Part shown: positions 44,422 through 47,329 of the stretch, one piece after another
How positions within the stretch are numbered: position 1 is the first letter of the stretch
Layout of the letters: each line of letters begins with the position of its first letter
Source: Planctomycetes bacterium RIFCSPLOWO2_12_FULL_50_35
GTDB taxonomy: Bacteria; Planctomycetota; Brocadiia; Brocadiales; Bathyanammoxibiaceae
Direction: 5' to 3'
Assembly: GCA_001828605.1 (NCBI GenBank)
Contig: MHZB01000009.1
Span: forward strand, 1 to 49,613
DNA: 49,613 bases
The notes under the pieces: model-generated
Told to the model about the DNA's origin: nothing
The model's database searches: none
Seen by the model: the letters and a program-made list of their open reading frames with translations, nothing else
Program-made: the position numbers and the translations under genes

Positions 44422-45303
44422 ATGCATTTTACCCTAACCCTGGTCATAATCATTTTCGGTCATACGGCCCTCGCTTCCACAGAGGTCTTTTTCTCTCCGG
44501 CGGACAGCACCAAAAAACGCCTCGTAACCGCCATACATGCGGCCGAGAATTCACTGGATATAGCCACATTCCAGTTCACGTCCGTAGATGTCGCCGAGGC
44601 GCTCGTGGAGGCCAAGAACCGGGGCACTCGCATTCGAATCCTGGCGGACGAAAATGAATCTCAAAACGGGCAATCAGTCATCCCATTCTTACAAGGAGAG
44701 GGGCTAGATGTAAAATACATAAAGGGCCGTTTCGGCGGCGGCATGCATCACAGTTTTGTAATCGCCGACTCGAAGGCCGTATTTACCGGCTCTTACAATC
44801 TGACGGAATATTCCGATAAATTCAACTTTGAGAACGCCATCTTCACCGACGAACCTCGACTCGTAACCAAGTATCAGACTCAGTTCGATAAACTGTACGG
44901 AGAGCTCCTGGCGAAAATCCCTTCCCCGACAACTGAAACCGCCGTCACAGAAAAGGAACCAAAACATTTTATCGGACTGTCTATCTCCCATCTCGGGAAA
45001 ATCTTGGGAGAAGATTCAATGCTGTCCGATTCCGACAAGAAGATGATGTGGGGTGCTTGCAGGAACCAATACGTCCGCGGGAAGGGTGAAATCGTTTCCA
45101 GTTCTGTTGACCCGCAGACGGGTCCAATGGTAGTCATAAGAGATGAGGGAGGAGTGCAGATAGAGATACTTTTAGATGCAGACGAGTCTGATAAAATCTC
45201 CAAGACATCGGGCGGCGAAGTGGTAAATTATACAGGCAGATTACTGGCTCATCCTGAAACTGCACACAGTTCCTTTAAGCTAGACAGAGGCGGCCTTAAC
45301 TAA
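44422..45303 (+). CDS. Secreted phospholipase-D-like (HKD) protein with altered catalytic motif
   Basis: A 293-residue exported protein with a signal peptide (about 1-18, cut near ALA-S). A single PLD-type domain spans about 20-165. The motif reads HHSFVIAD followed by TGSYN, so His109 and Asp116 are present but the lysine of HxK is replaced by Ser111. The FENA segment (137-140) after it is normal. A C-terminal part (about 225-293) looks like a small beta-rich domain, perhaps OB-like, preceded by a linker. Many PLD-like proteins are nucleases or lipases acting as dimers, but the missing lysine makes activity doubtful. It is 13 nt from the TPR gene and probably in one operon with it. Confidence 0.83.
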   Translation: MHFTLTLVIIIFGHTALASTEVFFSPADSTKKRLVTAIHAAENSLDIATFQFTSVDVAEALVEAKNRGTRIRILADENESQNGQSVIPFLQGEGLDVKYIKGRFGGGMHHSFVIADSKAVFTGSYNLTEYSDKFNFENAIFTDEPRLVTKYQTQFDKLYGELLAKIPSPTTETAVTEKEPKHFIGLSISHLGKILGEDSMLSDSDKKMMWGACRNQYVRGKGEIVSSSVDPQTGPMVVIRDEGGVQIEILLDADESDKISKTSGGEVVNYTGRLLAHPETAHSSFKLDRGGLN

Positions 45304-45316
45304 GGGAGGAAAAGGC

Positions 45317-47329
45317 ATGTCCAGAAAGAATCCCACTTCTCCATTATTGATACCTCTGAAAAACACCAAAAAAACGTATAATAATGAAACAACCTGTTAT
45401 TGCGAGTCCGCCTCAGGCGGAGAAGCAATCTCGTGTTGTTTGTTGGAAATTACTTATGGGATTGCTTCGTCGCTTTCACTCCTCGCAATGACGGTCTATT
45501 TTGCATCTTTCAGGGGTCTCTTATTATTTCTAACACTCTTTACTCTTTTCTGGCTGACCCCGCTGTCAGCACAAACAGGCAAGACCTCAGCCCAGGAAGA
45601 TTTTGTGCATCTTCTAGCACATGCCGTTGAATCTATAAAACAAGGTAAGTACGATAACGCACTTGTCGCCTTTGACAAGGCCCTGGAGATCAAACCCGAT
45701 GATTACAAGGCATGGGCACATAAGGCCCAGCTGCTCGACCAAATAGGGCGATACAAAGAGGCCGTAGAGGCATATGACAAGGCCACGAGCTTGAACCCCC
45801 TCTTCTACGAGGCGTGGATAAATAAGGGCCTGGCGCTGGTGCGGGTCCAGGAAAACCATGAAGAACAGGTAGAGGCGGCAATCAGTGCCTACGACAAGGC
45901 GATAGAGATTAGACCCCGCTCTTATCAGGCGTATCTCAACAAGGGCAATGCCCTCACCAGGCTGCGAAAATATGAAGAGGCGCTCAAGACATACGATAAG
46001 GCCATCGAGATAGACCCAAACCACCATGCGGCCTACACGGATAAGGGGCTTCTATTGGGCGACATGGGGAGAAATCAAGAGGCGATAGACACACTTGAAA
46101 GGGCTATCTGGATCAACCCCAAGTCATACTTCACCTGGACAAACATTGGGATGGCGTTGTTCCGAATGGGCCGGTACGAAGAGGCCGTCAAGACCTTTAC
46201 AACCGCCTCGGAAATAAACCCCAAGGACTACGGCCCGCTGACCAACAAGGGTCTGGCACTGGTGCGGCTCGGTCGTTACGAGGAGGCACTAAAGGCATAC
46301 GACAAGGCCCTTGAACTGCTGCCGACGTCGTACGAGACCTGGTACAATAAGGGTTTCCTTGCAATTGAACTGAACAAGTATGAAGAAGCCAACAGTGCCT
46401 TTGACAAGGCAGTGGAGATTCGCCCCGACTACCTGAAGGCATGGGTAAGTAAGGGCGACGTACTGTCTAGAATGAGCAGGGAAAAGGAGGCCAGAAATGC
46501 CTATGAAAAGGCCGCGGAGATTACACCGGATACGCCCGAGGCCTGGGTAAGCCAGGGTGACGCCCTATCACATATAGACAGACACGAAGATGCCCTGAAG
46601 GCCTTCAACAAGGCCGCCGCCATGGCACCCAACATATACGAGGCCTGGCTCGGCAAGGCAAATGAATTAATAAAACTCAACAGGTATCAGGAATCCCTCA
46701 GCGCCCTTAACCAGGCCGCCCAGCTCAGGCCAAATACATACGAGGTCTGGTACAACACCGGCACTGTGTGCATGCGCATTACAAAATATAATGATGCACT
46801 CAAGGCATTTGACAGGGCCTTACAGATAAACCCCGCTTCACAAGAAGCATGGTATAACAAGGCGCTGATACTCGGCGAGACCTTGGGCCAACCGGCAGAC
46901 GCACTACTCGCCATTCAAAAGGCCACTTCCCTCGAGACCCAGTCAGCTCGGGCCTGGGACTACCAGGGTATCATACTCAGCGACCTGAAACGCTATGACC
47001 ATGCCCTGCAGGCATTCCAGAAGGTCATTGAGATTAACCCAAACTTTTTCCCAGCCTGGCACAATATGGGCATGGCACTCGACTCTATGGGGAAAACGGC
47101 AGAGGCAATTGATGCGTACAAGAAATCCCTGCATATAAACCCAAGTTTCGACATCGCCTGGTACAACATGGCATCCGCCCAGGCGGCGCTTAAGGATAAG
47201 GATGGCGCACTCGATTCCTTAAGACATGCAATAGACCTGAACCCGCAGATGCGGGACTGGGCAAAGACCAATCCTGACTTCGCACCGTTCCTCAACGACC
47301 CGGACTTTGCAAGAATCCTGGGGCGGTGA
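45317..47329 (+). CDS. Exported 16-repeat TPR protein with a MITE in its signal-peptide region
   Basis: A 670-residue open frame with a good ribosome binding site (GGGAGG) before the ATG. Residues from about 95 to 650 form 16 consecutive tetratricopeptide repeats, mostly with the motif YDKA-EI-P. They are protein-binding scaffolds, and no enzyme domain is present. A 172-bp element (45349-45520) lies in codons 11-68. Without it the N terminus would be MSRKNPTSP followed by LLFLTLFTLFWL and TPLSA, a classical signal peptide. With it, translation either gives a long leader before the same hydrophobic core or restarts at the element-derived ATG at 45488 (residue 58), which has no clear ribosome binding site. 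Downstream DNA is non-coding and repeat-rich. Confidence 0.9.
   Translation: MSRKNPTSPLLIPLKNTKKTYNNETTCYCESASGGEAISCCLLEITYGIASSLSLLAMTVYFASFRGLLLFLTLFTLFWLTPLSAQTGKTSAQEDFVHLLAHAVESIKQGKYDNALVAFDKALEIKPDDYKAWAHKAQLLDQIGRYKEAVEAYDKATSLNPLFYEAWINKGLALVRVQENHEEQVEAAISAYDKAIEIRPRSYQAYLNKGNALTRLRKYEEALKTYDKAIEIDPNHHAAYTDKGLLLGDMGRNQEAIDTLERAIWINPKSYFTWTNIGMALFRMGRYEEAVKTFTTASEINPKDYGPLTNKGLALVRLGRYEEALKAYDKALELLPTSYETWYNKGFLAIELNKYEEANSAFDKAVEIRPDYLKAWVSKGDVLSRMSREKEARNAYEKAAEITPDTPEAWVSQGDALSHIDRHEDALKAFNKAAAMAPNIYEAWLGKANELIKLNRYQESLSALNQAAQLRPNTYEVWYNTGTVCMRITKYNDALKAFDRALQINPASQEAWYNKALILGETLGQPADALLAIQKATSLETQSARAWDYQGIILSDLKRYDHALQAFQKVIEINPNFFPAWHNMGMALDSMGKTAEAIDAYKKSLHINPSFDIAWYNMASAQAALKDKDGALDSLRHAIDLNPQMRDWAKTNPDFAPFLNDPDFARILGR
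45349..45520. mobile_element. MITE-like element inserted in frame in the TPR gene
   Basis: The element is 172 bp. Its ends are imperfect terminal inverted repeats: GATACCTCTGAAAAA on the left and TCTTTCAGGGGTCTC on the right (12 of the first 14 positions pair). It is flanked by the direct repeat TTATT (45344-45348 and 45521-45525), a 5-bp target duplication. Inside are subterminal inverted repeats GTTATTGCGAG (45396-45406) / CTCGCAATGAC (45482-45492), GAAGCAATC (45422-45430) / GATTGCTTC (45460-45468), and a small hairpin TCCGCC/GGCGGA. There is no transposase, so mobility would need a partner elsewhere. Element plus duplication adds 177 bp, exactly 59 codons. Confidence 0.85.

Follow-up and report, generated by a model that had tools for sequence, protein, structure and literature searches.

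A family-specific MITE has very probably inserted at the junction between the n-region and the hydrophobic core (h-region) of the signal peptide of a TPR protein in Planctomycetes bacterium RIFCSPLOWO2_12_FULL_50_35, in such a way that the reading frame and the start at 45317 are kept and the mature protein is probably unchanged. The gene (45317-47329, + strand, 670 aa) lies in the window, by which we mean the whole analysed stretch of 49,613 bp, and its ORF runs uninterrupted across the element. The insertion, its ends, the target duplication, the frame, the family of related copies and the conserved start site are demonstrated by the comparisons described here.

An in-frame insertion with empty sites in relatives

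The element occupies 172 bp (45349-45520, + strand) between two copies of the target site TTATT (45344-45348 and 45521-45525, both + strand). Its left TIR, GATACCTCTGAAAAA (45349-45363, + strand), differs at one position from the consensus GAGACCTCTGNAAAA, and its right TIR, GAGACCCCTGAAAGA when read on the - strand (45506-45520), differs at two; the two ends form an imperfect 15-bp inverted match, and on the + strand the right end reads ..TTTCAGGGGTCTC. The element, its near-matching inverted ends and its flanking duplication were all borne out as described in a first-pass annotation made from the sequence alone. Together with one target copy the insert measures 177 bp, or 59 codons, and a single frame of the six is open through its full length, namely the one used by the TPR gene. 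The gene thus stays readable because 172 + 5 is divisible by three, as the annotation had also noted, and the crossed frame is stop-free.

The same annotation described nested subterminal palindromes. Inverted repeats are present, but they consist of the outer TIR pair and a distinct inner repeat belonging to a separate core family, with arms GTTATTGCGAG (45396-45406)..GAAGCAATC (45422-45430) and GATTGCTTC (45460-45468)..CTCGCAATGAC (45482-45492), all on the + strand. A small palindrome, CCGCCTCAGGCGG (45408-45420, + strand), is an additional repeat of the same genome. The predicted RNA fold of the element has an energy of -60.2 kcal/mol (z = -6.4), and none of 200 shuffles was equally stable. 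An Rfam search gave no match over the element, only a weak chance match to a CRISPR repeat outside it, and promoter-like matches within the element are weak (9 of 12 positions).

Orthologues of the TPR gene were found in five genomes (G006, G004, G008, G002 and G003; 67-81% identity), which represent three other genera of Ca. Bathyanammoxibiaceae within the Brocadiales, and all five lack the 59 codons. In each, the gene lies 3' of the same PLD-family gene and encodes a short, ordinary signal peptide (MSIRNLTSILLLTAFIFWQGLLSPPAGKAVAQEDF in G006), and the alignment contains a single gap that spans the insert exactly. The ribosome site and start of the G006 gene are nearly identical to those in the window. 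Judged from the aligned genes, this comparison shows that the 59 codons arose by insertion; the empty sites are those of other species rather than alleles of the same species, genus g1 being represented by one genome. When the PLD protein was used as a query against the genome contigs, no relative was found.

A family of MITEs, possibly modular

Allowing at most one mismatch, the TIR consensus occurs at 215 sites in the window genome (G000), compared with 1 for a reversed-pattern control. Among 79 candidate TIR pairs in the loci fetched from this genome, 23 are flanked by perfect 5-bp TSDs, compared with 0-1 at six shifted offsets. A TIR family of this size with 5-bp duplications identifies the element as a real mini-transposon and not a chance palindrome, and the sister copies that the first-pass annotation expected from a search with the two ends are indeed numerous. 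Exact TIR matches number 83 in the window genome and 1-67 in each of the eight further family genomes, and are almost absent from 66 other genomes of the class. The TIRs therefore appear essentially confined to Ca. Bathyanammoxibiaceae, a family in the order Brocadiales (PMC9723696). The inner hairpin core (TCATTGCGAG..GAAGCAATC) is present in 42 of 73 class genomes, most of which lack these TIRs; at the sequence level it is a separate, widespread repeat.

The interiors found under the shared TIRs vary and include a ATTGCGAG hairpin, a ATTCTGAG hairpin, a TAGCCGCAGGC hairpin and a coding module. Such exchange of cores under the same TIRs suggests modular MITEs. Swapped hairpin cores were seen at loci of the window genome such as L020, L119 and L133 (129 bp) and at L198-L206 of G002 (120-132 bp). 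The layout of the window copy (TIR, spacer, core, core, spacer, TIR) recurs in several others, and its best other match in the assembly is 81% identical over about 80 bp, with no near-identical copy. From the family genomes we catalogued 103 copies meeting a TIR-and-TSD criterion, a set that is partly TSD-selected and incomplete because copies were gathered as stretches around TIR matches. Catalogued copies are 96-262 bp long and mostly intergenic.

With TIRs shared by its copies, a TSD, a short transposase-free body and empty sites in relatives, the element has every required MITE feature that we tested. A search for an autonomous parent in sampled loci of the window genome, covering the intervals between TIRs spaced 0.7-3 kb apart, turned up no transposase. 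The only gene of the transposase family searched (DDE_Tnp_1) among the nine genomes is an IS5-type gene of 277 aa (L156, G000:C118), which has a GAGAGCTCTGAAAAC site nearby and no clear partner end. A literature search for the TIR, the core, or MITEs in Brocadia or Bathyanammoxibiaceae found no relevant paper.

In-frame copies and a coding module

Four of about 100 catalogued copies are in frame in recognisable genes: the TPR gene and genes for an FMN_bind protein, a Prok-JAB domain protein and a metallophosphatase. The FMN_bind copy (G001:C96; L210, 825-1020, with L349 and L350) also lies at a signal peptide, where 196 bp plus CTAAT add 67 codons. The orthologue in G007 is free of the insert and has the N-terminus MRPGWGVFSVFLVFLLSANAVSQG, and the right end of the insert is also in frame in G003. 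The Prok-JAB copy (G001:C47; L259, 1350-1512) lies within the Prok-JAB domain, spans 163 bp and contributes 56 codons, and its empty counterpart (L354, G001:C59) is a closely similar gene copy in the same assembly; this filled and empty pair represents either a strain variant or a second species. In the metallophosphatase of G007 (L316, 1511-1709), the insert is C-terminal and adds 68 codons (199 bp plus TAGAG).

Across 100 copies, 68 of 600 frames are open, compared with 61.0 +/- 7.3 in shuffles. Most copies lie between genes, with frames open no more often than in shuffles, and we therefore regard the window copy as a tolerated survivor. We find most of the in-frame cases best explained in the same way, as those persisting out of a large number of insertions, at cleaved signals, loops and tails that tolerate them. 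That two of the four lie at signal peptides is suggestive, the cases being too few for a preference to be claimed. Small ORFs that cross other copies were also considered and rejected as chance-like, in L114 and L251 with no Pfam domain, and in L115, L105, L144 and L213 with translations judged by eye.

In place of a hairpin, the metallophosphatase insert contains a conserved coding module of 66 aa (ETSEKLENLP..FPD.LKDKI.YD...LLIFKGVMSE.E...LL.LS.D..Y..AI.ALFQ.S). It is carried by about nine unrelated proteins of these genomes (L316 at 1511-1709, L323, L275, L029, L105, L375, L378, L379 and L381), including metallophosphatases, an HD-GYP-like protein, a lipoprotein, a transporter-like binding protein and membrane proteins. 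The distance from TIR to TIR is usually 199 bp, the TIRs are themselves translated (ETSEK and LFQRS), and a clear TSD is present in one copy only. Sequence searches of the module against Pfam, NCBIfam and solved structures gave no match. Its predicted structure is a compact beta/alpha mini-domain (mean pLDDT 92.5), for which a fold comparison with the PDB returned no significant match. Distant versions lie in large proteins with no recognisable TIR DNA, in a Blastocatellia MAG (L380) and in plasmid proteins of Sinorhizobium (L373, from a Sinorhizobium mexicanum plasmid). The module could be either a transposon-captured domain or the source from which the TIR ends were derived. We suggest only tentatively that the TIR family could be a modular vehicle, carrying non-coding hairpins in some copies and in others a self-folding mini-domain of 66 residues that can be inserted in frame into unrelated proteins, with signal-peptide n/h junctions as a recurrent tolerated landing site (the window copy and FMN_bind).

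Translation, rival readings and known systems

The good ribosome binding site noted by the first-pass annotation is the Shine-Dalgarno sequence AAGGGAGGA (45302-45310, + strand), 6 nt 5' of the ATG at 45317, with a duplex energy of -11.3 kcal/mol. This site and its ATG are conserved in the orthologues, and the 13 nt immediately 5' of the ATG (GGGAGGAAAAGGC) are the same in G006. Removal of the element and one TTATT gives MSRKNPTSPLLFLTLFTLFWLTPLSAQTGKTSAQEDF, so that the signal peptide is rebuilt as the annotation proposed; what remains of the original downstream of the element is the core LLFLTLFTLFWL followed by TPLSA/Q (45521-45574, + strand). The n-region, hydrophobic core and small-residue cleavage site are compatible with a Sec signal peptide on hydropathy and orthologue comparison only. 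The right TIR is translated in frame as FRGL and places an Arg immediately N-terminal to the core, so the charge pattern remains plausible. Outside the insert, purifying selection acts on the gene (dN/dS 0.09-0.16 for orthologue pairs in which dS could be estimated; about 0.14 against G006).

We propose that a non-autonomous Ca. Bathyanammoxibiaceae MITE landed where the n-region meets the h-region and duplicated TTATT; a transposase acting in trans, not recovered in our searches, presumably mobilised it. Translation would most likely still begin at 45317 and run through the element, giving a pre-protein with an n-region of about 67 residues ahead of an intact core and cleavage motif. Sec export would then proceed via the core, with cleavage expected near TPLSA. 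Because the core and cleavage motif are intact, the 59 residues would leave with the signal peptide, probably leaving the mature TPR protein unaltered. The effect of the insertion may be near-neutral, and so long an n-region could slow export.

The annotation also raised the possibility that the element supplies a new start with its ATG (45488-45490, + strand). On this reading ribosomes would begin there to give MTVYFASFRGLLLFLTLFTLFWLTPLSA, a signal peptide of normal length, and the upstream start would be abandoned. That ATG is indeed in frame, nine codons 5' of the core and with the Arg just before the core, and a caution from work on REPs is that repeats placed at protein N-termini frequently lie outside genes, owing to wrong start calls (PMC3733652). 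A new-start role is nevertheless unlikely, given that no Shine-Dalgarno pairing precedes 45488 (0 kcal/mol, against the strong and conserved site at 45317) and the ATG sits inside a predicted hairpin stem. Two further readings concern the insertion itself. That the 59 codons were ancestral and had been deleted in relatives is a reading for which we found no point in favour: five orthologues in three other genera lack them precisely, the flanking TIRs, the 5-bp TSD and the multi-copy family elsewhere refute it, and we give it practically no credence. An assembly chimera at a repeat has somewhat more to be said for it, the window genome being a draft (about 2 Mb, 90% complete, 122 contigs) with numerous repeat copies, and yet is very improbable: the assembly holds no near-identical copy, and the two flanks, which have the 5-bp duplication in common, together rebuild one orthologous gene, which argues against repeat-driven misassembly.

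The remaining alternative is a coding palindrome of the Rickettsia type, selected for openness and spreading via in-frame genic insertion. Nearly half of the first-described Rickettsia palindromic elements (RPEs) lie in ORFs, each with a conserved encoded peptide (review PMC10969869). The resemblance to RPEs suggested by the annotation holds in part: an element of similar size is found in frame in functionally unrelated genes, three besides the TPR gene, and one sub-family here carries a conserved peptide, the 66-aa module with its translated TIRs. It fails in that about 4% of catalogued copies are in genes and most are intergenic, the frames are no more open than in shuffles, and the conserved peptide is limited to the coding sub-family and shares nothing with the window copy. 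Since the family as a whole shows neither a conserved peptide nor a high proportion of copies within genes, we do not file it as RPE, and selection for openness is an improbable account of the window copy.

The element resembles known bacterial MITEs (ERIC/RU, NEMIS/Correia, RUP, QMITE), which are likewise short, TIR-bounded, transposase-free, flanked by a target duplication, high in copy number and mostly intergenic; the present family differs in having its own TIR and interchangeable interiors. A MITE-like repeat within a signal peptide has already been reported, the RU-2 repeat making up residues 1-30 of pestis YPO1552 (Delihas 2007, PMC2759123). In both cases the signal peptide includes a translated MITE-like repeat, but the window element sits between the n-region and core of a pre-existing signal, with a TSD and empty orthologues. 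The insertion is a known kind of event, yet recurrent in these genomes, and the wider family is of interest. In the window copy, comparison with relatives cleanly establishes that a bacterial mini-transposon has been incorporated into a protein and left it unbroken, at a cleaved export signal that tolerates change. It belongs to a natural series that comprises a non-coding copy, an in-frame copy paired with a near-allelic empty one, an in-frame copy in two species and a coding mini-domain in unrelated proteins, and which allows us to ask how mobile DNA becomes protein sequence outside Rickettsia.

GTAG/CGTC REPs are palindromes of 20-40 bp that bear the tag GTAG or CGTC and are associated with RAYT transposases (PMC3733652). 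They too occur inside genes, often near protein ends, and are set apart from the window element by description, having no TIR and 5-bp TSD structure. Elsewhere in the window, near its left edge, a further TIR-like site, GAGACCCCTGGAAAA, lies at 88-102 on the - strand.
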